Assembly: GCA_903907925.1 (NCBI GenBank)
Contig: CAIVQB010000099.1
Location: forward strand, 1 to 47,415
Length of the DNA: 47,415 nt
Origin: an uncultured Verrucomicrobiota bacterium
GTDB taxonomy: Bacteria; Verrucomicrobiota; Verrucomicrobiia; Limisphaerales; UBA9464
Direction of reading: 5' to 3'
Shown here: piece by piece, positions 25,364-44,195 of the stretch
Numbering within the stretch: the first letter of the stretch is position 1
Layout of the letters: every line of letters begins with the position of its first letter
Notes under the pieces: model-generated
What the model was told of the DNA's origin: nothing
The model's database searches: none
The model's input: only the letters and a program-made list of their open reading frames with translations
Translations under genes and position numbers: made by a program

Positions 25364-26923
25364 TTAGCGGACGTTCGGTCCCATCGACAGCAGGAACATG
25401 ATGTTGTTCGGCGTCTTCTTGAGTTTGCCGAGGAGCAGATCCATTGCCTCCACCGGCGGCACCCCGGTGAGGGCGCGTCGCAACACGGTGATCCGGTTGT
25501 ATTCGTCCGGATGGTAGAGGAGCTCCTCTTTCCGCGTTCCGGAGTGCTCGATATTGATGGAGGGGAAGATGCGGCGATCGACCAGTGCGCGGTCGAGGCA
25601 GACCTCCATGTTTCCGGTGCCCTTGAATTCCTCGAAAATGACTTCATCCATCCGGCTGCCGGTGTCCACGAGCGCGGTGGCCATGATGGTGAGCGATCCG
25701 CCCTCCTCGATGTTGCGGGCCGCGCCGAAGAAGCGCTTGGGTTTGTGCAGCGCGTTGGCGTCGACGCCGCCGGAAAGAATCTTGCCGGAGTGGGGCTGGA
25801 CGGTGTTGTAGGCGCGCGCGAGGCGGGTGATGGAGTCGAGGAGGATGACCACATCCTTCTTGTGCTCGACCATGCGGCGGGCCTTTTCGATGACCATTTC
25901 CGCGACCTGGACGTGGCGCTCGGGCGGTTCGTCGAAGGTGGAGCTCACGACCTCGGCGCCGCGGCAGTTGCGCTCCATGTCGGTGACTTCTTCAGGCCGC
26001 TCGTCGATCAGCAGAATGATGAGGTAGCACTCCGGATTGTTCTTCAGCATGGCGTTGGCCAGCTTCTGCATGAGCACCGTCTTGCCGGTGCGGGGCGGCG
26101 CGACGATCAGTCCGCGCGTTCCCTTGCCGATCGGGCAGACGATGTCGACCACGCGGGTGGACAACTCACTGGCGTCAGTCTCCAGCAGGAAGCGCTTGTT
26201 GGGGAACAGCGGCGTCAGGTTGTCGAAGTGGGTCTTTTCCTTGGCCAGATCCGGATCAATCCCGGCGACCCGCTCGACCTTGAGCAGAGCGTAGAATTTT
26301 TCCTTTTCCTTGGGCGGGCGCACCTGGCCCTCGACCTCGTCGCCGGTCTGCAAATCGAAACGGCGGATCTGCGACGGCGAGACGTAGATGTCCTCGGGGC
26401 AGGGAAGATAGTTGAACGCGGGCGAGCGCAGGAATCCGAAGCCTTCGGGCATCACCTCCAGGATTCCGCGGGTGTTGATGGTGCCTCCGGCGTGGAGGTT
26501 GCGCTGGACGATCTGGAAGAGGATTTCCTGGCGCTTGAGCGTGCCGTAGTTGTCGATGCCGAATTCCTTCGCCACCTCGCTGAGAGGGTTGATCGACATC
26601 GGCTGAAGATCGTGAAGGTTGAGGTTCCGCGGATTGACCACGAATTCCGGCTTGGACGGAATGTATTCGGTCACCGGGGTGTCCTCGTTCGGATTCTCCA
26701 TTCGTTCCCGGGGCGGGAGGACGGATTTCACCACCAGAGGGGCGTCCTCCTCGCGATACGAATCGGTTGTGGGCGGAATCGTCGTCTCGACGGGTGCATC
26801 CACCTCGGATGCGATTTCAACAGGTGCGGAGTCAGGCGCCGGTTCGGGCGCTTCCGGGGCGGCCTTCTTTTTGGTCACCCGCGTCTTTTTCGGAGCGGCG
26901 GGATCTTTTGGCGGACGTGGCAT
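25364..26923 (-). CDS. rho: transcription termination factor Rho
   Basis: A hexameric RNA/DNA translocase that ends transcription at C-rich, untranslated RNA (519 aa). An N-terminal Pro/Ala/Lys-rich extension of about 100 residues precedes the family domains. The RNA-binding cold-shock fold includes [20 protein letters not shown]. The ATPase domain has the P-loop [23 protein letters not shown] with the catalytic Glu, and [13 protein letters not shown]. The secondary RNA site region [20 protein letters not shown] follows. The extension is common in high-GC bacteria and may add RNA affinity. The start ATG is at 26923. kdsC follows after 20 nt. Confidence 0.96.
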
Positions 26924-27297: not shown

Positions 27298-29445
27298 TTA
27301 TTGCGCGAGTGGAAACCGGCTGGTGAGGGCGTGGACCCGGGCGCGGACGGATTCAGCGACGGCGACGTCGCCCGGTTTGGCGAGCACTTCGCCGATGAAA
27401 TCGGCGATCTGGGCCATCTCGGCCTCGCGCATGCCGCGGGTGGTTACTGCCGGGGTACCGAGACGGATGCCCGATGCTTCAAAGGGCGAACGGGTTTCGA
27501 ACGGGATCGTATTCTTGTTGGTGGTAATGCCGGCTTCGTCGAGGGCGAGCTGGCATTGCTTGCCGGTCAGGCCGCGGATACCGACATCGACGAGCATGAG
27601 ATGATTCTCCGTTCCGCCTGAGACAATGCGGAAACCGTTGCGCAGGACTCCGGCCGCGAGGGCTTGGGCGTTGCGGACGATCTGCTCCTGATATTCGCGG
27701 AAGCCGGGCTGCAGCGCCTCGTGAAAACAAACGGCCTTCGCTGCGATCACGTGCATCAACGGGCCGCCCTGGATTCCGGGGAACACCTGCGAATCGATCA
27801 CCTTGGCGTATTTCTCCGGGCAAAGGATCAAGCCACCGCGCGGACCCCGCAGGGTCTTGTGGGTGGTGGTGGTGACGAAATCAGCGTACGGAACAGGGCT
27901 CGGATGGACGCCGGCGGCGACCAGTCCGGCGATGTGGGCGATGTCGGCAAGGAGCAGTGCGCCGACTTCGCGGGCGATCTCGCTCATCCGCTTGAAATCG
28001 ATCACGCGCGAATACGCCGAGGCACCGACGGTGATCATTTTCGGGCGATGTTCCCGGGCGGCGGCCGCCAATTGATCGTAGTCGATCCGTTCGTCGTCCT
28101 TGCGCACCCCGTAGTGGACGATCTCAAAAAACTTGCCGGAAAAATTCGCCTTGTTGCCGTGAGTCAAATGGCCGCCATGGGAAAGATCCATGGTCAGCAA
28201 TTTGTCGCCCGGCTTCAGCAGGGCGAAGTAGACCGCCATGTTGGCGCCGGAACCTGAATGCGGCTGCACATTGGCGTGCTCGGCACCGAAGAGTTGCTTG
28301 GCGCGATCGATCGCCAGTTGCTCGGCCACGTCGACAAACTCACACCCGCCATACCAGCGGCGGCGCGGATAGCCCTCGGCGTATTTGTTGGTGAGCAGGC
28401 TGCCCTGCGCTTCCATCACCGCCGGGCTGGTGAAATTCTCCGAGGCGATCAGTTCGATGTTGTCCTGCTGCCGCTGGCGTTCGCGGGCGATGACATCGGC
28501 AATGGCGGGATCGACGGAGGCGAGTTTCGAGGACATGTCGGATTCAATTTTCAGAAGGCGCCGCTCATGACGCCCTCCAGCAAATGCAGTATGCACGAAG
28601 GCATCCACGATGCCCGCGGCCAGTCCGGGTGAAACGAATTTTGCACCCAGACAGAGGATATTGGCGTCGTTGTGTTCCCGGCACAAGATTCCTCCCTCGA
28701 CGGTGTGAACCACGGCGGCGCGGATCCCTGGAACCTTGTTGGCGGCGATGCTGATGCCGACTCCGGTCGAGCAGCACAGGATCCCGAAATCCGCCTCGTC
28801 GGACGTTATCTGGTGGGCCACCGCGTGGGCGTAGTCCGGATAATCGGTGGATTCGGTCGAGTGCGTGCCGCAATCCAGGATGTCGACACCCAACTCCTGA
28901 AGAACCGGTTTCAACGATTCCTTCAGCGCATAGCCGGCATGATCGGCCCCGAGTGCCACCCGCGGTGTTCGCGATTCCGCGCCGGCCGGGCTGCCCTCGA
29001 TGAACCGGAGCAATCCTCCCAGACTCGCCGCGATTTGATCCCGGCAATCCATGTAGCCTTCGAGGGGGCCGCCGATCGGGTCGGCAATGTCCCGATCCAA
29101 TGGATCGGCGGCGTCATCGAAATCCCGCAGGACGAAGGTCTTTCCCGCGGCCTCCGGATACAAATAGACGAGTCCCTCCACGTGTCCCCGCGTCAGGCCG
29201 AAGACAAAGTCCGCCTCCCGGACCAGGCGTCCGGTGGCCATTTGGGAGCGGTGGCCGGAAATATCGATTCCGACGTCCTTCATCACTCGGACCGAATGGG
29301 CGCTGGGGGGCTGACCGTTGATGGCCCCGATGCCGGCGGACATTACCCGCCAGTCCGGACGGTCCTTCAATGCACGACGCACCAGCGCCTCGGCCATCGG
29401 GGACCGGCAGGTGTTGCCCGTGCAGACAAAGAGGAGGGTCTTCAT
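27298..29445 (-). CDS. fusion: YwlE-type phosphatase + ribose-5-phosphate isomerase B + serine hydroxymethyltransferase
   Basis: One uninterrupted frame of 715 codons carries three complete enzymes. Residues 1-150 are a low-molecular-weight phosphatase: CTGNTCRSP (C8, T12, R14) and general-acid region DIADPIGG. The threonine at the YwlE T11 position is the marker of protein-arginine phosphatases. Residues about 160-302 are Rpi[18 protein letters not shown] with the catalytic Cys, [12 protein letters not shown]. Residues 304-715 are SHMT (GlyA): [13 protein letters not shown] and the PLP lysine in [14 protein letters not shown]. Start chosen: ATG 29445; the frame extends 33 codons further without similarity. 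A GlyA-only start at ATG 28536 is possible but lacks a Shine-Dalgarno sequence. In Bacillus these domains are separate genes of one cluster (ywlE, ywlF, glyA). Confidence 0.9.
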
Positions 29446-29577
29446 TCCAGTTCGCGTGGCGGGGAAAGTGGTAGTCAACAGGGCCAGGGTCAACCGCGGA
29501 GTGTTTGGGGTGGACGGGATCCGTTTTGAAGCTGGCCGAATCAAGGTCGGCCGGCCCCGCGATCGACCGAAAGCGGG

Positions 29578-29774
29578 GATTCAGACGGGATGAACGGAAT
29601 GAACAGGATCCGATCGGTTTGGCAAAAACTTTGCGTTGGTTCTGCCGGTGCCTGTCCTCCGTTGACCCGCCTGGAATCGGGAAATGCGATACGGACCGTG
29701 CGAAGTATAACTCACTGCCGAAGATCTGATCCTATCCAACTCATTCCGTTCATTCTGTCCATTCCGTCTCAATC
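29578..29774. repeat. dispersed inverted-repeat element, copy C (197 bp)
   Basis: The left end GATTCAGACGGGATGAAC and then GGAATGAACAG is mirrored by the right end at about 29744-29774 (GTTCATTCTGTCCATTCC then GTCTCAATC). The internal sequence shares blocks with copy D, such as CGGGAAATGCGATAC versus TGGGAAAGGCGATAC. Similarity to D continues about 40 bp past the right end (TGAATCCGC and following). The element lies upstream of the fused phosphatase gene and upstream of the candidate RNA. Confidence 0.8.
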
Positions 29775-29866
29775 AATGAATCCGCATCCCTCGGTGGTCT
29801 TGCCGAATCGTGTCTGCGAGAAGCACCCCAAATCCCTCCGGACAGCGTCACGACCGAAACCCGATT

Positions 29867-29898
29867 CGGTGAATAACTCGGTGTATAACCGGTGCATA
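29867..29898. promoter_or_regulatory. three tandem CGGTGNATA repeats
   Basis: CGGTGAATA (29867), CGGTGTATA (29879) and CGGTGCATA (29890) are spaced 12 and 11 nt apart, about one helical turn, so they face the same side of the DNA. They lie just upstream of the candidate promoter of the structured RNA and could be an operator. They are too few to suggest a replication origin. Confidence 0.45.
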
Positions 29899-29906
29899 TC
29901 ATTCTC

Positions 29907-29934
29907 TTTCACTCTGCGGATTTCATGATATTAA
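29907..29934 (+). promoter_or_regulatory. candidate promoter of the structured RNA
   Basis: TTTCAC (29907-29912) and TATTAA (29929-29934) are separated by 16 nt in a locally AT-rich stretch that contrasts with the GC-rich surroundings. The -35 is weak and the -10 moderate. Transcription would begin near 29941, just before the first stems of the RNA. Confidence 0.3.
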
Positions 29935-29940
29935 GGTAAC

Positions 29941-30797
29941 AGTTCATTGAAAGAACCGAGTCGGACGACGGCGGACGAAAGAAGGCCGTGCGAGACTCAG
30001 GGATAATCCCAGGCGACTGGGGAAAGGTTGGGCGAGGCTGGTTCGCCCGACTCCTCTGAAGAGCACCGCGAGGTGCGAACTGGAGGCAGTATTCACCAGT
30101 TCCTCTGGCGGAGGTCGCGCTCCGTCAGTCACGCGATTCGGGAACTGAGCGGCGAGGAACGATGAGAAACCGTTCCGAGTCGGGTCAAGTATCCGGGCGA
30201 CGTTTCGACGTCCGGTGAATCACGGTTACCCAGAGGGTAGATGGCTGCTACCGCGTACCAGCACGAGCACGGATGTTTAGCAGGTTGTCCTAATCGATGA
30301 CCCCAAACCATGCCCAACGGCATGACAAAGCGAGCATCCGGGCCGGGGAGGCCCCGCCGGGCAAGGCGAGGAAACCTTCCGAAACGCAGGCGATGCGAAA
30401 AACCGCACCGCCGGCCAGTCAACTGAACGCAGCCTGAGAGTTAAGAGGTCAGACCCGTCACCCCGGGCCAACGCACCGCCAAAAGTGGTGGCCGTCCTGG
30501 GGAGAAGCGGTCAAGACGCGAACCAAAGTGGCAAACGTGTCTTGACCTTGTCCGCAACCCGGCGCCGCAAACGCCGGACTCAAGCGGGCACAGAGGCCTC
30601 ACTCAATAATCCGCAAGCCGCAAGGCTGCGGACGGCCCTGCTGCGAGGCCGACAACTCCGCTTGCCGTGGAGAACAGCGTCGGGAAGCCGGCAGCCCATT
30701 GGGCGCCAAATGTCGGCGTTGGGAAAGAGAGTGTGGCGAGCTCCCACCCCCACTTTGGTCCCGGTTGGTCGAAAGACTGGCCGGGACCTTTGATTTT
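29941..30797 (+). ncRNA. unassigned large structured RNA (about 850 nt)
   Basis: There is no plausible protein frame, but a dense series of short perfect stems ends in a textbook intrinsic terminator on +. Examples: GGGCGAGGCTGGTTCGCCC (about 30030), CACCGCGAGGTG, GAACTGG with CCAGTTC, GGAACG-loop-CGTTCC (30156), CCGGGCGACG with CGACGTCCGG, CATGCCCAACGGCATG, GTCAAGAC with GTCTTGAC (30509-30546), CCGCAAGCC with GGCTGCGG, and GCCCATTGGGC. I looked for and did not find the conserved cores of RNase P RNA, tmRNA, SRP RNA or group I introns, or domain V of group II introns. Boundaries are inferred from the -10-like box and the terminator; two shorter RNAs are possible. It may be a new large ncRNA family. 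Confidence 0.5.
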
Positions 30798-30798
30798 T
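30757..30798 (+). terminator. strong intrinsic terminator of the structured RNA
   Basis: GGTCCCGGTTGGTC and GACTGGCCGGGACC pair as a 14-bp stem, including three G-T pairs, around a GAAA tetraloop. TTTGATTTTTT follows on +. No + strand protein gene precedes it within several kilobases, which supports a + strand non-coding transcript. Confidence 0.85.
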
Positions 30799-30964
30799 TC
30801 ACCGGCCGACTTCCCTCGGCACCCTACTTACTTTTGCTCTTTTCCGTTTTCCTTTTGCCTCCTTTTGCCTTGAGCCCCGCCCTCGGCGTGCCGCGGTGCG
30901 TGACCAAATCCAAGTCGAAGCTGGATCGCCGCTCCACCGGGCCATCCACGCTGTCGCCAAACCA

Positions 30965-31006
30965 AAAGACCCAGCGACGCTGCGCTGGGTCTTTCGTCTT
31001 TTTTAA
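30965..31006. terminator. bidirectional intrinsic terminator downstream of clpC
   Basis: AGACCCAGCG and CGCTGGGTCT form a 10-bp stem with a short loop. The + side continues TTCGTCTTTTTT and the minus side TTTTGG. On the minus strand it lies about 35 nt after the clpC stop and should end the mcsA-mcsB-clpC message. On + it would back up the terminator at 30757-30798. Confidence 0.75.
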
Positions 31007-31039
31007 CCGACTTCGAGGACTCAGAGCGCCTGCCCGAAG

Positions 31040-33565
31040 TCAGGGTGCCAGGGCTGTTTCGTCGCGGACACCCGGCGTCCGCTGGACGAAGACCAGTTTT
31101 TCCTTTTCCGCGGTCACGTCGACCGGGGTTCCCTCGGTGAGGGTTCCCTTGAGGATTTCCTCGGCCAACGGGTCTTCGAGATAACGTTCCACCGCGCGGC
31201 GCATCGGGCGTGCGCCGTATTGCGGATCGAATCCCTTCTCGATCAGGAAATCCATCGCCTTGGTATCGAGCACCATCTGGACGTTCTTCCGGGCGATGCG
31301 TTCGGTGACCTTCTTGATTTCGAGGCCGAGGATGGTTTCCAGCTCCGGCTTGCCGAGCATGCGGAACACCACGATGTCGTCCAGGCGGTTGAGGAACTCC
31401 GGCCGGAAGAATTTCTTCGCCTCGTCGAGCGTCTTCGACCGCATCGCCTCGTAGTCTGCGCCGTCGCTCTGCTTGGCGAAGCCGATGGTGTTGTTCTTCC
31501 GCAGGATGTCCGAACCCACATTGGAAGTGAGCAGGATGATGGTGTTGCGGAAATCCACGGCGCGTCCGAGTGAATCGGTGAGTTTGCCCTCCTCAAGAAT
31601 CTGGAGGAGCATGTTCATCACGTCCGGATGGGCCTTTTCGATCTCGTCGAACAAGACCACCGAATAGGGCTGGCGCCGGACCTTCTCGGTCAACTGGCCG
31701 CCTTCTTCATAGCCGACGTAACCCGGCGGTGAACCGACCAGGCGGCTGACGGTGAACTTCTCCATGTACTCGCTCATGTCGAGTTGGATGAGGTTCTGGT
31801 TCGAACCGAACATCTGTTCCGCGAGCGTGCGGGCGAGCAGCGTCTTGCCGACGCCGGTCGGTCCGAGCAGCGCGAAGCAACCGATCGGGCGCTTGGGATC
31901 CTTGAGATCGGCCCGGGCCCGCCGCAGGGATTTGGCCAGCGCGAGGACGGCGTCTTTCTGACCAATGACCACCTTGGCCAGTTCCACTTCGACGTTGAGC
32001 AACTTCTGCGTTTCCGACTGACCCATCCGTTGAAGCGGGATGCCGGTCCATTTGGAGACGACCTGAAGGATGTCATCCTCGGTCACCCGAACCCGTCGCT
32101 CATCCTTGCTCGTCTTCCATTCGGCAAGTGTCTTGTCGAGGCGCTCCTTGGAGGCCTTCTCGCGGTCGCGCAACCGGGCGGCACCCTCGAAGTCCTGATC
32201 CTTGATCGCCTGTTCCTTCTGCTGTTTCAGCGATTCGATCTCGGTCTCGATGTCCTTGACGTCGGGCGGCCTCTGCATCGCGGCGATGCGGGCGCGCGAA
32301 CCGGCCTCGTCCATCACGTCGATGGCCTTGTCCGGCAGATAACGGGCGGTGATGTAACGGTCACTGAGCTTCACGCAGCTCTGGATGGCCTCGAGGGTGA
32401 ACTCCGCCTTGTGGTGTTCCTCGTACTTGGGCTTGAGGCCGGTGAGGATGACAATGGCGTCGTCGACGCTGGGCGGCTCGACCTTGACCGTCTGGAAGCG
32501 GCGTTCGAGCGCCGAATCCTTTTCGATGTACTTGCGGTACTCGTTGAGGGTGGTGGCACCGATGATCTGCATTTCACCGCGGCTGAGGGCCGGCTTGAAG
32601 ATGTTGGAGGCATCCATCGTTCCCTCGGCCGAACCAGCGCCGACAATGGTGTGAAGCTCGTCGATGAACAGGATGACGTTGCGGGCCTTCTTGATCTCAT
32701 CCATCACCGCCTTGATGCGCTCCTCGAACTGGCCGCGGTACTTGGTGCCGGCGACCATGAGGGCGAGGTCCAGGGTGACGACACGCTTCGCGGCGAGCAG
32801 TTCGGGAACATTTCCCCGGGCGATTTCCTGGGCGAGTCCCTCGACAATGGCCGTCTTGCCCACACCGGCTTCACCGAGCAGAACCGGATTGTTCTTGGTG
32901 CGGCGGCAGAGAATCTGAATGACGCGCTCGATTTCTGGTGCGCGTCCGATCACCGGATCCATCTCACCCTTCTTGGCGAGTTCGGTCAGATCCCGGCCAT
33001 AGGCCTTGAGCGCCGGCGTCTTGAGCTCCTTCTTGCCGGCCTCGGTTTTCTGTCCGGCCTTGACCGCTTCAGACGGTGCTTCGGCGGGAGGTTCCTCGCC
33101 TTCGTTCTGTTGAAAGCCCGGATCGAGTTCTTTGAGGATCTCCTGGCGGCATTGCTCGATGTCGATGTCGAGATTCTTGAGCACCTTGGCGGCGACGCCG
33201 TCGCCCTCGCGCAGCAGTCCGAGAAGGATGTGTTCCGTGCCGACGTAGGTGTGGTTCAGCGCCTTGGCTTCCTTGGCTGCGAGCGAGAGCACCTTCTTGA
33301 CGCGCGGGGTGTAGGGGATGTTGCCGCTGACCTTGCCCTCTCCGCCGCCGCGGACTTCTTTTTCGACTTCCTGCCGGACGTTTTCGAGGTCGAGTCCCAT
33401 CCGCTGGAGGACGTTCACCGCGACGCCCTGGCCGAGCTTGATCAGGCCGAGCAACAAATGCTCGGTGCCGACGAAATTGTGGTTGAAACGATCCGCCTCC
33501 TTCCGCGCCAGGGCAAGAACCTGCTGCGCGCGGGGCGTGAAGTTGTTCATGTTGTCGTCACTCAT
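31040..33565 (-). CDS. clpC: ATP-dependent Clp protease ATP-binding subunit ClpC
   Basis: A Hsp100 unfoldase that feeds proteins to ClpP (841 aa). The N-terminal double Clp-N repeat carries [12 protein letters not shown] and [11 protein letters not shown]. The two glutamates (E35, E111) correspond to the phosphoarginine-contacting pair described for Bacillus ClpC. D1 Walker A is GEAGVGKT (231-238). The middle domain contains a UVR motif ([15 protein letters not shown]), as in true ClpC. D2 Walker A is GPTGVGKT, and the IGF loop for ClpP docking lies in NNTIGFAKQ. Start chosen: ATG 33565 (MSDDNMNNF); ATG 33550 ([10 protein letters not shown]) and TTG 33574 are alternatives. It is the last gene of mcsA-mcsB-clpC, with 223 nt between it and mcsB. 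Confidence 0.95.
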
Positions 33566-33630
33566 GGCGTCCAAGGATGGAGTGTGGCCTGGGTCGATTC
33601 CCGCAGGGTTGAAGCGGGGCTTTCGGAGGC

Positions 33631-33659
33631 AATGTGGGCGTCGCGGGTTTGATCGTCAA
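33631..33659 (-). promoter_or_regulatory. candidate clpC promoter
   Basis: On the minus strand TTGACG (33654-33659; 5 of 6) is followed after exactly 17 nt by CACATT (33631-33636; 3 of 6). It lies about 65 nt upstream of the clpC ATG, in the long mcsB-clpC gap. clpC may therefore be transcribed both from here and by read-through. No CtsR or CIRCE-type operator is visible. Confidence 0.35.
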
Positions 33660-33788
33660 AAGTTCTTGCGGAACCCGTCGGCGAACAGCGGGCTTTTTGG
33701 AAAAGGGATTGAATCTGGAAAGCACGAAAGCAGGACAGGGTAGCCGGGCGGGGTTCGGTTCCGGTGCGGCTCATGGAATGGTTCCGGT

Positions 33789-34883
33789 TCAGGTGGGTTT
33801 CTCCCCGGTTGGCACCGGCTCCGGAGACGGCAACGGCTTCATCCGTTCGCGGAGCAGATCGGCGCGCAGGGCGTCCCGTCCCTCGGCGTCGAGTTTTTGC
33901 GGGCGTCCCGCCTGGAGATGCGCCGGCTGCGAAACCAGGAACAATTCGTCCACCACTGCCTTGGGGGTTGTCCCAAACAATCCCAGATCAATGCCCAGCC
34001 GGAGATGGCTGAGGAGGTTCATCGTTTCCTTGGAGGTGATGGTGTGGGAATGAGAAAGAACACCGTAGGCGCGTCCGATGTGATTGAAGAGGACCTTGGG
34101 CTTCTTCTCCAATTGGAAGAGGCGGGCGTTCTCCTCGTGCTCGATGATCTGCAACAGCACCTTGTTGATCCGCTCGACGATTTCGGCCTCGGATTCCCCG
34201 AGGGTCATCTGATTGGAGACCTGAAAGATGTTGCCGAGGGCCTCGGTGCCTTCGCCGTAAAGGCCGCGCACTGCGAGGCCCAGCTTGTTCACCGCCTGGA
34301 TGATCTGATTGATCTGTTCGGCGAGGACCAGGCCGGGCAAATGGAGCATGGCGCTGACCCGGATGCCGGTGCCGAGGTTGGTCGGGCAGGCGGTGAGATA
34401 GCCGTAGTGACGATCAAAGGCAAAGCCGACTTTTTCCTGAAGCGAAGTATCCACCGCATCGATGGCGAGCCACGCCTGCTTGAGTTGGAGGCCAGGGCGC
34501 AAAGCCTGCATCCGGAGATGATCCTCCTCGTTGACCATCACGCAGACAGTCTCTTCCTTGTTGAGGACGAGCCCGCTTCCAGCGCTTTTCTGGGCGTGTT
34601 CGCGGCTGATGAGATGCCGTTCCACAAGGAGTTGTTTGTCCTGGGTGTTGAGCTTGTCCATGCCCTCGGAAAACGGTTCGTTGCCCATTTGTGGGAGCGC
34701 GGACACCGCCTCCATCAGGGATTCGAAGGCCTTGATCCGGTCCGGTTTCTTGGCGTGGCCGGGAAAGGGGACGCCGCTGAGATTGCGGGCCAGGCGGACG
34801 CGTGAGGAGAAAACGATTTTGTCGTTCGGACCGTTCCGGCGGCAGGCTTCTGCCGGGGTGCTCAGGAATTCGAGGACGTTCAT
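33789..34883 (-). CDS. mcsB: protein-arginine kinase McsB
   Basis: A phosphagen-kinase-fold enzyme that phosphorylates arginine side chains of proteins and so marks them for ClpCP (364 aa, full length). Visible motifs: FSSRVRLARN (26-35) for ATP phosphates, NEEDHLR (118-124) with the catalytic acid, CPTNLGTGIR (166-175), YGEGTEALGN, and the C-terminal allosteric phosphoarginine-binding RDxxRA motif as R336-D337-A-L-R340-A. All key residues are kept, so activity is expected. The ATG at 34883 lies 9 nt after the mcsA stop. The Pro-rich last ~15 residues are not conserved. The window also encodes the likely phosphatase partner (27298-29445). Confidence 0.95.
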   Translation of the reverse strand: MNVLEFLSTPAEACRRNGPNDKIVFSSRVRLARNLSGVPFPGHAKKPDRIKAFESLMEAVSALPQMGNEPFSEGMDKLNTQDKQLLVERHLISREHAQKSAGSGLVLNKEETVCVMVNEEDHLRMQALRPGLQLKQAWLAIDAVDTSLQEKVGFAFDRHYGYLTACPTNLGTGIRVSAMLHLPGLVLAEQINQIIQAVNKLGLAVRGLYGEGTEALGNIFQVSNQMTLGESEAEIVERINKVLLQIIEHEENARLFQLEKKPKVLFNHIGRAYGVLSHSHTITSKETMNLLSHLRLGIDLGLFGTTPKAVVDELFLVSQPAHLQAGRPQKLDAEGRDALRADLLRERMKPLPSPEPVPTGEKPT

Positions 34884-34892
34884 GGCGCAGTT

Positions 34893-35399
34893 TTAGGCAG
34901 TCTGCGATTCCGTGCGGGCGTTCTTGATCGCGTCGCGCAGCGCGGCGGCTTTTTCGAAATCCTCCCGGGCTATGGCGGCCTTGAGGTCCGCCTCGAGTTT
35001 GTCGATCTGGGATCGGCCGGCGGCGGCCCGTTTGACCCCGGCTGGCACTTTGCCCTTATGCTGTGTTCCTTTGTGCATGCCTTTCAACAGGGCTTCGAGG
35101 CCCTCAGCGAACACCTGATAGCATTCGGAACAGCCGAGACGGCCGGTTTTCTTGAAATCAGCCTGGGTGAATCCGCAGGCGGGACAGGTGGATTCGGTTC
35201 CGGAAGCCGTTGTGGCCTCCTCCATCTTTTGCGAGGCACCCAGTCCGAGGAGAAGATCCGCCAGGGAAAAGCCGGTCGGGTCGTTGACACCCTTCTCCTT
35301 CGCGCAGGCCTCACAGAGATCCACCTTCTTCACCTGATTCTCGACGATCTGGGTGAGATGAACGGTGGCTTCGGCCTTTTTACAGACATGGCATTGCAT
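34893..35399 (-). CDS. mcsA: McsA-type zinc/UVR adaptor protein
   Basis: An activator of McsB and adaptor for ClpC (168 aa). Two zinc-binding modules are visible: C3/C6 with C29/C32 and C72/C75 with C90/C93. The C-terminal UVR helix pair is KLEADLKAAIAREDFEKAAA, then LRDAIKN. The layout is that of Bacillus McsA. The ATG at 35399 heads the mcsA-mcsB-clpC series; the ctsR repressor gene that precedes it in Firmicutes is absent, replaced upstream by repeat element D. Some annotations would call it only a UvrB/UvrC motif protein; the neighbours make McsA the better call. Confidence 0.93.
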   Translation of the reverse strand: MQCHVCKKAEATVHLTQIVENQVKKVDLCEACAKEKGVNDPTGFSLADLLLGLGASQKMEEATTASGTESTCPACGFTQADFKKTGRLGCSECYQVFAEGLEALLKGMHKGTQHKGKVPAGVKRAAAGRSQIDKLEADLKAAIAREDFEKAAALRDAIKNARTESQTA

Positions 35400-40038: not shown

Positions 40039-41835
40039 ATGAATCGAACTGCAAAACTGTTCTCTCTCCTGGCCCTCGCTGCGGGCCTGGCGTTCTCGGC
40101 CTTCGGGCAGGGAATGACGAATGCCCCTGCTGCGGCCGCCTCGACCAATGCGCCGGCTCCGGCACAGGTCGCGGACGCACTCGCTTACCCTCCCGGTGCT
40201 AACGCCGGCAATGAGCAGGATCTCCAATGGCCCGTCCCGGCAAAGACCTTTGAAAACTTGGGGATGACCAACGCTCCGACGCCGCTCTACGCGAAGCCGA
40301 CGATGGATGAACTTGTCCAAAACGTCGCTCACAACAAGGTCTCGATCAATGTGATGTGGACCTTGGTGACCGGCTTCCTGGTCATGTTCATGCAGGCCGG
40401 TTTCGCGCTGGTTGAAACCGGATTGTGCCGCGCAAAACACGCGGCTCATGTCATGGCGACCAACTTCATGATCTATGCCCTCGGCATGCTCGGATTCTGG
40501 GCGCTGGGCTTCGGCATCATGTTCGGTGGCTATTTCAACGGTCCCGTTCCGATCGGCTGGCAGCCAACACTCGGTCAGGGGCTTGCGCTGTTGAACGTGG
40601 AGAAGGGCATTACCATCGGCGGAAACCTCTGGGGTCTGATGGGTGGAACCGGCTTCTTCCTGACCAACTCGGTCCTGGATACTGCGGTGTTCACGCTCTT
40701 CCTCTTCCAGATGGTGTTCATGGACACCACGGCGACGATCCCAACCGGTTCGATGGCTGAGCGCTGGAACTTCAGCAACTTCATCATCTACGGCCTTTGG
40801 GTCGGTGCCCTGCCTTATGCCTTCTTCGGCAACTGGGTCTGGGGTGGCGGCTGGCTGGCTCAGCTCGGTTTCAATGCCGGACTCGGACACGGGCATGTCG
40901 ACTTTGCTGGATCCTCGGTGGTGCACATGTGCGGTGGTATGATTGCCTTGGCGGGTGCCATTGTGATCGGACCGCGCCTGGGCAAGTATGGTCCGGACGG
41001 CAAGCCCCGCCCGATCCCCGGCCACAACATTCCCTTCGTCATGTTGGGAACCTTCATTCTGGCGTTCGGCTGGTTCGGCTTCAACCCGGGTTCGACCCTG
41101 GCGGGCACCGACAACCACATCTCGATCGTGGCCGTGAACACCATGCTGGCCTCCGCTGCCGGAGCCATGGCGACCTACCTCACCATGAAGGCGGTCACCG
41201 GTAAGCCGGACCCGTCCATGATGTGCAATGGTTTCCTGGCGGGCTTGGTCGCCATCACGGCTCCCTGCGCGTTCGTCAATTCACTGGGCGCGGTAATCAT
41301 CGGTGCGGTCTCCGGTGTCGTCGTTGTGTTCTCGGTGTTCTTCTGGGACAAGCGCGGCGTTGATGATCCTGTCGGTGCCATCTCGGTCCACGGCGTCAAC
41401 GGCGCCTGGGGCGTGCTGAGCCTTGGTCTCTTCGCCAACGGCAGCTACGGTGCCGGATGGGGTGGGGTGCACAAGTTGCTCTCCAAGACCGGTGAAATCT
41501 CGATCATCCTGAACGACGGCGCGGCCTCGATCGCGAAGTACAACAAGATGACCGCGGATGGCTGGACGGATCAGGGCGTCACCGGCTTGTTTGGTACCTT
41601 CTTCGGTGCCGGCTACAACGACGGCAAACAGTTCGCCGCACAATGCGTCGGCACGCTGACCTGCGCGGTCTTCGTGTTCACCTTCGCCTACATCTGGTTC
41701 AAGGTCTCCAATCTCATCATTCCTCTGCGTTCGAAGGCCGAGGACGAAATTGCCGGTCTGGATATGCCCGAAATGGGTGTCGAGGCCTACCCCGATTATC
41801 AACTGACCGATCGCTCGTCGCCGCCGGTCAAGTAA
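40039..41835 (+). CDS. amt: ammonium transporter, copy 1 (long form)
   Basis: An inner-membrane Amt/Rh channel for ammonium (598 aa with its leader). A Sec signal (SLLALAAGLAFSAFGQG) is followed by an unusual periplasmic Ala/Pro/Asn-rich stretch of about 60 residues containing TNAPAP-like repeats. The 11-helix core follows. The pore twin histidines are visible in DFAGSSVVHMCGG and ISVHGVNGAWG. The aromatic gate and FWALGFGIMFGG are typical. A loop insertion near residues 470-520 (HKLLSKTGEISIILNDG to KMTADGWTDQG) makes it larger than AmtB. The C-terminal GLDMPEMGVEAYPDY is the region that contacts PII. It follows glnK1 by 39 nt. Confidence 0.93.
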   Translation: MNRTAKLFSLLALAAGLAFSAFGQGMTNAPAAAASTNAPAPAQVADALAYPPGANAGNEQDLQWPVPAKTFENLGMTNAPTPLYAKPTMDELVQNVAHNKVSINVMWTLVTGFLVMFMQAGFALVETGLCRAKHAAHVMATNFMIYALGMLGFWALGFGIMFGGYFNGPVPIGWQPTLGQGLALLNVEKGITIGGNLWGLMGGTGFFLTNSVLDTAVFTLFLFQMVFMDTTATIPTGSMAERWNFSNFIIYGLWVGALPYAFFGNWVWGGGWLAQLGFNAGLGHGHVDFAGSSVVHMCGGMIALAGAIVIGPRLGKYGPDGKPRPIPGHNIPFVMLGTFILAFGWFGFNPGSTLAGTDNHISIVAVNTMLASAAGAMATYLTMKAVTGKPDPSMMCNGFLAGLVAITAPCAFVNSLGAVIIGAVSGVVVVFSVFFWDKRGVDDPVGAISVHGVNGAWGVLSLGLFANGSYGAGWGGVHKLLSKTGEISIILNDGAASIAKYNKMTADGWTDQGVTGLFGTFFGAGYNDGKQFAAQCVGTLTCAVFVFTFAYIWFKVSNLIIPLRSKAEDEIAGLDMPEMGVEAYPDYQLTDRSSPPVK

Positions 41836-41849
41836 TCGGTTTCCTTCAC

Positions 41850-41883
41850 GGGGGCCGGGGCGAAAAACCCCGGCCCCCTTTAC
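41850..41883 (+). terminator. GC-rich hairpin after amt1 (terminator or attenuator)
   Basis: GGGGGCCGGGG and CCCCGGCCCCC form an 11-bp perfect stem with the loop CGAAAAA, followed only by TTTA. It starts 15 nt after the amt1 stop. The short T-run suggests partial termination or 3'-end protection, separating the first PII-Amt module from the second. Confidence 0.65.
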
Positions 41884-41926
41884 AACCGGTCGTTCCACAC
41901 ACCAACGTCCGTCACTTTTCAGCCGT

Positions 41927-42641
<715 letters not shown>

Positions 42642-42686
42642 GTCTTCGTGACCCCATCCAACAACAATCCACGATTACTCAATTCC

Positions 42687-44195
42687 ATGAAAAAACTCTT
42701 CCTTATTCTGACGTTCCTGTGGGCTTCGGCCTCGGTTCTGAGTCCGGTTCGGGCCGAGGACGCCCCCAAAAAGGCGGATCCCTCCCTCGAACAGCGCATC
42801 TCGGATCTTGAATCCTATGTCAATAACGGCGCCCGCGGCGCCGATGCGGCCGACGCCAAGATCTCCAGCAAGGTCGCCGGATCCGGTCCCGGTCACAACG
42901 GGTTCCAGATGGTCTGCGCGGCACTGGTGCTGTTCATGACCCTGCCCGGCCTGTTCCTGTTTTACGGCGGCCTGGTCCGCAAAAAGAACATCCTCTCGGT
43001 GGTGGCCCAGTGCTTCGGCATCGCCGGCCTGGTGACAATCCTCTGGTGGGCCTTCGGCTACAGTTTCGTCTTCGGCGACGGATCCGGGCCGTGGTTCGGC
43101 AGCTTCAGCAAGTTCGCCTTCCTCAACGGCGTGGATTCAACGCCCAACGGCAACTACAGCTATTGGGTCTCCCAGAACGTGTACTCCATGTACCAGTTGA
43201 TGTTCGCGATCATCACCCCGGCCCTCATCGTCGGCGCCATCGCCGAACGCATGAAGTTCTCCGCGGTCCTGTTGTTCGTTGGGATTTGGATGGTGGTCGT
43301 TTACTTCCCGCTCGCCCACATGGTCTGGGGTATTGACGGTGCCATGAACGGCGTGTGGAACCCCGCTGCCAAGATCAAGGCGATCGACTTCGCCGGTGGT
43401 ACGGTGGTGCATATGAGCTCGGGTTGGAGCGCGTTGATCCTCTGCCTCATCCTTGGACCCCGCGTCGGGTTCGGAAAACAGAACATGGCTCCCCACAGCA
43501 TGACCCTCTGCGCCATCGGCACCGGAATGCTCTGGGTCGGCTGGTACGGATTCAACGCCGGATCCGCGGTGGCCGCGGACGGCGTCGCCGCCAACGCCTT
43601 CACCACCACGACCATTGCCGCCGCGGTGGCCTCGTTTGTCTGGGCTATGCTGGAGTACATCATCCGCGGCAAGCCGAGCATCCTCGGCTTCTGCTCGGGT
43701 GCGGTCGCCGGCCTGGTGGTCATCACCCCCGCCTGCGGTTTCGTGAACACGACCGGCTCGGTCATCATCGGCGTCCTCGCCGGTGTGGTGCCGTTCCTGG
43801 CCTGTGCCTATTTGAAGCCGTTCTTCAAGTATGACGATGCCCTCGACACCTTCGGCGTCCACGCCATCGGTGGAACCCTCGGAGCCCTGGTGACCGGCAT
43901 CCTCGCCACCGCCAGCAGCGGCAATGGAAACCTGGTCAGCAACCTCGCTGATGTCGGCGGCAAGATGGACCTCGCCAACCCCGCGACCCGCAACGGTCTC
44001 GCCAAGCTGGTGGCTGAAGGCGGCCTTTGGATGGAACAGCTCAAGGCCATGGGTGTCACCATCGTCTTGTCAGTCGTCGCCACGGTCATCATCGCCTACA
44101 TCGTCAAGGCGGTCGTCGGTCTCCGTCCGACCGAGGAAGACGAAACCCAGGGTCTCGATCTCGCCGACCACGGCGAAGAAGGTTACCACGGCTGA
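42687..44195 (+). CDS. amt: ammonium transporter, copy 2
   Basis: A second Amt-family ammonium channel (502 aa) preceded by a Sec signal (MKKLFLILTFLWASASVLSP). A short coiled-coil-like segment (DPSLEQRISDLESYVNN) comes before the channel core. The twin histidines lie in DFAGGTVVHMSSGW and FGVHAIGGTLGAL. LWVGWYGFNAGSAVAADGVA and FCSGAVAGLVVITPACGFV are classical Amt blocks. The end GLDLADHGEEGYHG is the PII-interacting tail and is closer to E. coli AmtB than that of copy 1. The two transporters differ enough to be distinct paralogues. Start ATG 42687; the upstream GTG 42648 only extends the signal. A terminator follows at 44302-44358. Confidence 0.94.
   Translation: MKKLFLILTFLWASASVLSPVRAEDAPKKADPSLEQRISDLESYVNNGARGADAADAKISSKVAGSGPGHNGFQMVCAALVLFMTLPGLFLFYGGLVRKKNILSVVAQCFGIAGLVTILWWAFGYSFVFGDGSGPWFGSFSKFAFLNGVDSTPNGNYSYWVSQNVYSMYQLMFAIITPALIVGAIAERMKFSAVLLFVGIWMVVVYFPLAHMVWGIDGAMNGVWNPAAKIKAIDFAGGTVVHMSSGWSALILCLILGPRVGFGKQNMAPHSMTLCAIGTGMLWVGWYGFNAGSAVAADGVAANAFTTTTIAAAVASFVWAMLEYIIRGKPSILGFCSGAVAGLVVITPACGFVNTTGSVIIGVLAGVVPFLACAYLKPFFKYDDALDTFGVHAIGGTLGALVTGILATASSGNGNLVSNLADVGGKMDLANPATRNGLAKLVAEGGLWMEQLKAMGVTIVLSVVATVIIAYIVKAVVGLRPTEEDETQGLDLADHGEEGYHG

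Follow-up and report, generated by a model that had tools for sequence, protein, structure and literature searches.

A MISL RNA gene of an uncultured Verrucomicrobiota bacterium with paired DnaA-box-like sites before its putative promoter and a boxA-like element at its predicted 5' end

The + strand of positions 29941-30797 of the window (that is, the whole stretch of 47,415 nucleotides of DNA analysed, from an uncultured Verrucomicrobiota bacterium) almost certainly contains a MISL RNA gene. We consider it reasonably probable from the sequence that, taken as a whole, this gene produces a DnaA-controlled, boxA-antiterminated MISL RNA that acts in trans. The RNA family is already catalogued, and the paired DnaA-type sites at the MISL promoter look new. 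The features are as follows.

29868-29876, - strand: DnaA-box-like 9-mer 1, TTATTCACC, with a 3 bp gap to box 2
29880-29888, - strand: DnaA-box-like 9-mer 2, TTATACACC, with a 2 bp gap to box 3
29891-29899, - strand: DnaA-box-like 9-mer 3, ATATGCACC; at least one such box occurs in 120 of 126 homologous upstream regions
29907-29934, + strand: putative sigma-70-like promoter, TTTCAC at 29907-29912, a 16-nt spacer and TATTAA at 29929-29934, with position-specific conservation
29942-29956, + strand: boxA-like element GTTCATTGAAAGAAC at the RNA 5' end, resembling rRNA leaders
29956-30000, + strand: P0 domain, outside the Rfam model; outer stem 29956-29962 with 29994-30000
29968-29972 with 29985-29989, + strand: inner stem of P0, seen in the single-sequence fold only
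30001-30744, + strand: MISL RNA core, RF03079, model positions 1-751 of 751
30757-30797, + strand: intrinsic terminator, a 14-bp hairpin with a GAAA loop and a U-rich tail; the hairpin covaries

The MISL family reportedly originates from Weinberg et al. 2017. When the whole window was scanned with Rfam 15, two matches were obtained, one tRNA and MISL. The MISL match (RF03079) is located at 30001-30744 on the + strand and scores 545.1 bits, against a gathering threshold of 274.6. In a permissive scan of 29600-31040, the match covered positions 1-751 of the 751 positions of the model with an E value of 2.4e-166, and the alignment showed a complete consensus structure with few non-standard pairs. 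GOLLD, ROOL and OLE gave no match in this region at E values up to 10, and MISL was the sole family found. An earlier note on this DNA had proposed a possible new RNA class. Since the match to RF03079 extends over the full model and lies far above the threshold, the feature is a member of a catalogued family, and the proposal of a new class is ruled out. The same note had described the stretch as gene-free, and we also see no credible gene in it. That is, the longer ORFs within 29941-30797 (30129-30422 on the - strand and 30485-30793 on the + strand) overlap both the covarying RNA and the full-length Rfam match, and 32 homologues keep the base pairs; on these grounds we reject a protein-coding stretch as well. 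Our literature search found no published function for MISL, and in the accessible part of the Ribonanza preprint the RNA serves merely as an example.

The folding analysis agrees with the claim of the earlier note that the stretch specifies a large structured RNA. Folding of the 857-nt + strand was better than that of its shuffled versions (z of -6.05), and none of 20 shuffles equalled it. RNAalifold was applied to an alignment of 32 full-length homologues, taken from 35 candidates. It predicted 204 pairs, and 108 of them had at least one change on both sides; thus, compensatory changes occur in the stems. The strong + strand terminator that had been noticed was also found by a terminator scan, as a hairpin at 30757-30788 followed by TTTGATTTTT, in a stretch where 1.8 terminator-like sites are expected by chance. 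A hairpin with a T-run is present in 110 of the 116 homologous loci with enough sequence, and the hairpin covaries (alignment columns 903-936).

The P0 domain is located between the boxA-like element and the core. Its outer stem covaries and is absent from the Rfam model, and both P0 stems appear in the single-sequence fold. We examined P0 in 21 sequences, which remained from 44 sequences of the same length after dereplication. In this sample, 82.3% of the cells pair, as compared with 59.1% after shuffling, and sliding the partner by 1-3 columns lowered the pairing to between 26 and 36%. The cells with changes on both sides numbered 26, against 7.9 in the shuffles. The number of P0 pairs with a both-side change in these 21 sequences was 5, which does not stand out from the shuffles, since 173 of 500 gave as many. 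A wider set of 98 loci yielded 51 distinct arm pairs, in which the pairing was 74.5%, as against a shuffled mean of 47.3% and a shuffled maximum of 58.5%. The homologous sequences are related and not independent, so that the shuffle statistics of this analysis, including those of the boxes given below, overstate the significance. Because a covarying P0 and a covarying terminator lie outside the Rfam model, the limits 29941-30797 of the earlier note appear to fit the predicted transcript better than the Rfam limits 30001-30744, and would be the better limits of the gene. The corrected ends, which include the boxA-like element, P0 and the terminator, should be useful for making MISL RNA for structure work.

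Conservation in relatives was also found. Among 39 near genomes, 13 (host included) contain MISL over the Rfam cut-off, and BLAST and the covariance model match the same 14. Because these two methods give one set of genomes, the patchy occurrence of MISL is not an effect of the filters, although assembly gaps may still play a part. MISL is present in 5 of the 8 genomes of the host's genus and in other families, and in many genomes of the host's own family, f1 (G002, G004, G007-G010 and G012-G023), it was found neither by the covariance model nor by BLAST. In a sample of the phylum, at least 28 of 387 genomes were over the cut-off and 31 had a match; these counts are lower bounds, since the phylum search used stricter filters and scored two candidates per genome. 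Two genomes, G193 and G368, have two MISL copies each. Homologues with a taxon name were obtained by a search with a signature of 17 fixed bases. Among the matches listed (80 of 117), they belong mostly to Opitutaceae, Pedosphaera, Limisphaerales and other Verrucomicrobiota, from which the host too was assigned to Verrucomicrobiota, and four records among the matches listed (L072, L088, L096 and L112) have other taxon labels.

The sequence at the 5' end of the RNA resembles the boxA of rRNA leaders. In the 127 upstream regions, GTTCNTTGANAGAAC is found exactly in 99, with one mismatch in 25, with two mismatches in two, and with four mismatches in one. We compared the element with rRNA leaders in five genomes only (G000, G003, G005, G033 and G357); 16S was found in 2 of 13 genomes by family search and in 3 of 12 by DNA search, and the comparison contains no Opitutaceae leaders. 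GTTCATTGAAA is common to the host MISL and the rRNA leaders of G003 and G005, which belong to the same genus (11 of 11 letters). The host's own rRNA leader, before a 16S fragment, has GCTCATTGAAA, of which 10 of 11 letters equal those of the MISL element. In G357, the MISL copy of which scores 267.6 bits and is just under the Rfam cut-off, the rRNA leader has GATCTTTCACAG and MISL has GATCTTTGACAG, with 11 of 12 letters equal. In G033, the rRNA leader has GCTCTTTGAAAG and the MISL element is GTTCCTTGAAAG; 10 of 12 letters agree and two positions differ. Thus, the spelling of the element tends to co-vary at the unlinked rRNA and MISL places, and this suggests that one factor is involved at both.

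In rRNA leaders, boxA is bound by NusB/S10, according to the accessible part of PMC5725501, which notes that its list was made with non-coding RNAs left aside. The E. coli consensus given there, GYTCTTTAANA, is not matched by GTTCATTGAAA of MISL, and the rRNA leaders of the same genus deviate from it likewise. We think it likely, judging from the likeness to these leaders, that the 5' element of MISL is a boxA. The other reading, that the element is merely a hairpin or an initiation sequence, seems doubtful to us. The single-sequence fold does allow the element to form a 4-bp GTTC/GAAC hairpin; however, the arms are nearly invariant and show no covariation, as is expected for a protein-binding sequence, and a mere hairpin does not agree with the resemblance to rRNA leaders of the same or related genomes.

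The region upstream of the RNA had drawn attention in the earlier note because of three tandem CGGTGNATA repeats. The repeats are real, at 29868-29899, and when read on the - strand they are DnaA-box-like 9-mers. The array in the window consists of two strict 8-base TTATNCAC cores and one ATATGCAC, and the ninth base is C, not A. We then used the MISL loci as a sample: 182 were collected, 168 of these had a profile hit, 155 had the 5' end, and 145 had upstream sequence. The upstream set contained 127 unique regions, of which 126 entered the box count and 125 remained after dereplication.

The upstream regions of 126 MISL copies contain 345 sites of a relaxed box (TTRTNCAC or WTATNCAC, on either strand), as compared with 9 on average and at most 18 in shuffled sequences; six of the 126 regions had no relaxed box. 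The density of the relaxed box was 10.5 per kb upstream of MISL and 0.14 per kb elsewhere in the same loci, and the corresponding values of a reversed-motif control were 0.31 and 0.10 per kb. In a count free of any motif, the top 8-mer was TTATTCAC, present in 96 of 125 regions against an expectation of 0.17. Same-strand boxes up to 40 bp apart were at a distance of 11 bp 49 times, 12 bp 9 times and other distances 17 times (58 of 75 are 11 or 12). A strict pair at 11 or 12 bp exists in only 50 of 127 regions, or in 71 if the partner is allowed one mismatch. At the ninth base, where A is canonical, the 345 sites have 190 C and 120 A, and the fifth base is T in 275 of them. The boxes occur in both orientations, and their place relative to the RNA start is constant.

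In vivo, E. coli DnaA binds mainly to pairs of boxes separated by 2 or 3 bp, as stated in the accessible part of Stringer et al. 2024 (PMC11317965). A gap of 2-3 bp between 9-mers corresponds to a start-to-start distance of 11 or 12 bp, so that the spacing at MISL is the one preferred by E. coli DnaA. On the other side, the host DnaA has the motif DHGTV, as compared with DHTTV in the solved DnaA 8btg, and this difference, like the frequent C at the ninth base, counts against control by DnaA. Taken comprehensively, the core, the spacing and the position of these boxes make it very probable that the MISL promoter is under the control of DnaA. As for the promoter itself, the assignment of the promoter-like start described in the earlier note comes from the alignment only. 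The alignment shows conservation at particular positions (T at -8 in 100 of 125 homologues and A at -12 in 77 of 125), and a simple promoter scan found no promoter there.

The distribution of the boxes in whole genomes was also analysed. The host genome has 58 TTATNCAC sites against 153 sites of the reversed pattern, and the sole TTATNCAC pair within 100 bp is the pair at MISL. Among 100 listed of the 114 sites of G129, the only cluster within 100 bp consists of four sites in 56 bp just upstream of MISL. Among 50 listed of the 101 sites of G056, there is one pair, 58 bp apart at 565 kb and away from MISL, and MISL lies beyond the listed part. In the host genome (G000) and in the complete relatives G129, G056, G160, G312 and G137, the reversed pattern is 1.9 to 3.5 times as frequent as TTATNCAC, as if the latter were avoided.

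We considered the MISL locus as a replication origin, and this candidate is ruled out by the GC skew of two complete genomes, G129 and G160, in which the skew test was made; the host assembly consists of 148 contigs. The cumulative GC skew of G160 reaches its minimum at 1.67-1.72 Mb, far from MISL at 3.57 Mb, and in G129, with the skew sampled at 20 places, the sign flips at 3.7-4.3 Mb and MISL is at 1.67 Mb. In eight genomes MISL is at least 155 kb from dnaA. In G160, dnaA also is far from the skew minimum, at 3.14 Mb. Around this minimum (C1:1560000-2000000, 440 kb; L226, L227, L241-L260), no two relaxed boxes lie within 150 bp of each other, which speaks against the view that these boxes make up the whole DnaA code of the phylum.

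These findings also bear on the possibility that the DNA of the array matters and not the RNA. That is, the array might be a DnaA-titrating or DnaA-inactivating site like datA, and MISL might be just a neighbour or a transcript that holds the site open. The accessible part of PMC12371093 describes datA as a DnaA-inactivating, titrating locus. In favour of this possibility, no other tight TTATNCAC cluster exists in the host genome or among the sites listed in G129, and in the two complete genomes sampled the array is far from the skew minimum. However, about 850 nt of RNA are under strong structural constraint, which is unexpected for a bystander, and the position of the boxes is fixed with respect to the start of the MISL RNA. 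We therefore regard a titration site as unlikely.

A stricter tandem pattern was found at 17 places in 13 of the 39 related genomes. The reversed tandem control was found at 7 places in 3 genomes (5 in G034, 1 in G018 and 1 in G038). G034 holds 3 of the 17 tandem places and 5 of the 7 control places, and individual tandem places, those of G034 above all, may be chance matches. The neighbours were inspected for all 17 places except L275, L277 and L280, with the following result.

L270, L278 and L279: at MISL
L266 and L267: about 300 bp from dnaA
L274: by dnaB
L273: by mreB
L271 and L272: between mraZ and queA
L269: by queA
L265: by a PAS protein
L276: near a DUF7133 protein
L264 and L268: by proteins without family

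Single boxes are present 48 and 333 bp upstream of the host dnaA, and 5 of 8 other genomes (L184, L187-L190) have single boxes close to the dnaA 5' end. Tandem pairs at replication genes and cell-shape genes are what is expected of a DnaA regulon, and the double boxes at L266, L267, L271, L272, L273 and L274 possibly represent, as far as sequence goes, a DnaA regulon of the phylum. As a separate observation, the G034 places L264, L277 and L280 have common GTGAATAAnnnTGTGAATAA pairs in a similar setting, and the protein downstream of L264 has no Pfam family.

MraZ is a regulator that acts on tandem repeats. It is an example of another regulator that might bind the array, and it would be suited by the tandem pair of L271 and L272 (G003 and G005), some 80 to 200 bp away from the start of mraZ, and by the arrangement of the repeats, which are direct and one helical turn apart. 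On the other hand, the core agrees with TTATNCAC and is found in either orientation, the same pairs exist by dnaA, dnaB and mreB, and the spacing is that of DnaA pairs. We consider binding by such a regulator improbable, and less likely than binding by DnaA.

The genes around MISL were compared between lineages, with the limit that many MISL loci are too short to contain both flanks. In the window, MISL is flanked by an LMWPc/RpiB/SHMT gene (27298-29544, - strand) and by clpC with mcsB- and mcsA-like genes (31040-35399, - strand). There is no + strand gene after MISL in the window, clpC on the opposite strand being the next gene. The gene at 27298-29544 is an unusual one-frame fusion of low-molecular-weight phosphatase, ribose-5-phosphate isomerase B and serine hydroxymethyltransferase domains. 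Four loci of the host's genus have this gene upstream of MISL, and its relatives occupy the corresponding position in three other genomes of that genus. Elsewhere in the window, two ammonium transporter genes are close together on the same strand (40039-44195, + strand).

In other families of the order, a same-strand cysK follows MISL in 16 of 127 unique loci, and behind cysK come a Rho-like gene (12 loci) and a WYL-domain gene (7). Upstream, on the opposite strand, are SecD-like (19) and M23 peptidase (16) genes. In an Opitutaceae-like group of 83 loci, an hrpB-like helicase gene is upstream in 44 (one representative checked), and typA/bipA is downstream on the same strand in a cluster of 32 of the 83 (two representatives checked). 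Thus, loci of one lineage have neighbours of MISL in common, and these are different between lineages. As for rho, the second gene after MISL is a short Rho-like gene in up to 12 loci (L018, L019, L020, L022 and others), and the rho gene of the host (25364-26923) is about 3 kb upstream of MISL. A link of the Rho-like neighbours with boxA antitermination is possible.

Since a terminator lies in between and no neighbour is common to all lineages, cis-control of one gene is no general explanation of MISL. It is quite unlikely that MISL is a large cis-regulatory leader of the gene behind it, for although the same-strand cysK and typA/bipA loci described above would agree with such a leader, the gene that follows varies between lineages, the window has no + strand gene there at all, and in 110 of 116 loci the RNA ends in a terminator-like hairpin. 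Structure and promoter have been kept although the neighbouring genes differ between lineages, and a trans-acting RNA or RNP therefore seems most likely. That its trans-acting role concerns replication or growth is a tentative suggestion.

We imagine the working of this DnaA-controlled, trans-acting RNA as follows. The + strand transcript of MISL, made from the putative -35/-10 at 29907-29934, would run from about position 29941 to about 30797. DnaA dimers would bind to the paired boxes upstream of the promoter and tune the transcription of MISL, in whichever direction, to the state of replication or growth. The boxA of the nascent RNA would recruit NusB/S10, like that of rRNA, which would allow this long transcript, although it is not translated, to be completed and to fold properly, and transcription would end at the intrinsic terminator near 30797. 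The product might then act in trans, as a stable structured RNA or RNP, in the control of replication or growth.

Bacteria contain large structured RNAs for which no function is known, and these have long been puzzling. MISL would be tied to replication control and to the machinery of rRNA synthesis by its paired DnaA boxes and its boxA-like leader, and the DnaA-type sites give this orphan RNA its first testable role. We speculate, with less than even confidence, that MISL belongs to a DnaA regulon of Verrucomicrobiota, is made with the rRNA antitermination machinery, and is an RNA machine coupled to replication or growth. In our literature search, such a role was not found described for any large bacterial RNA. 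The open literature likewise contained none of the promoter and leader findings on MISL, which is a weak negative because the founding paper and most subscription papers were outside the search.

Finally, MISL can be compared with known systems. MISL resembles GOLLD, ROOL and OLE in its size class, its ornate structure and its unknown or partly known function. As compared with the gene proposed here, the Rfam model of MISL ends short of the boxA-like element and P0 on the 5' side and of the terminator on the 3' side, and the promoter features are no part of RF03079. The array has the same core and the same 2-3 bp gap as the double boxes of the E. coli DnaA regulon in the accessible part of PMC11317965, whereas here the putative target is a large non-coding RNA and the ninth base is often C. 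Similarly, like the boxA-led transcripts of rRNA and suhB in the accessible part of PMC5725501, MISL would carry its element near the RNA 5' end, in a form similar to that of rRNA leaders; in contrast to them, the transcript of MISL would be a non-coding RNA other than rRNA.
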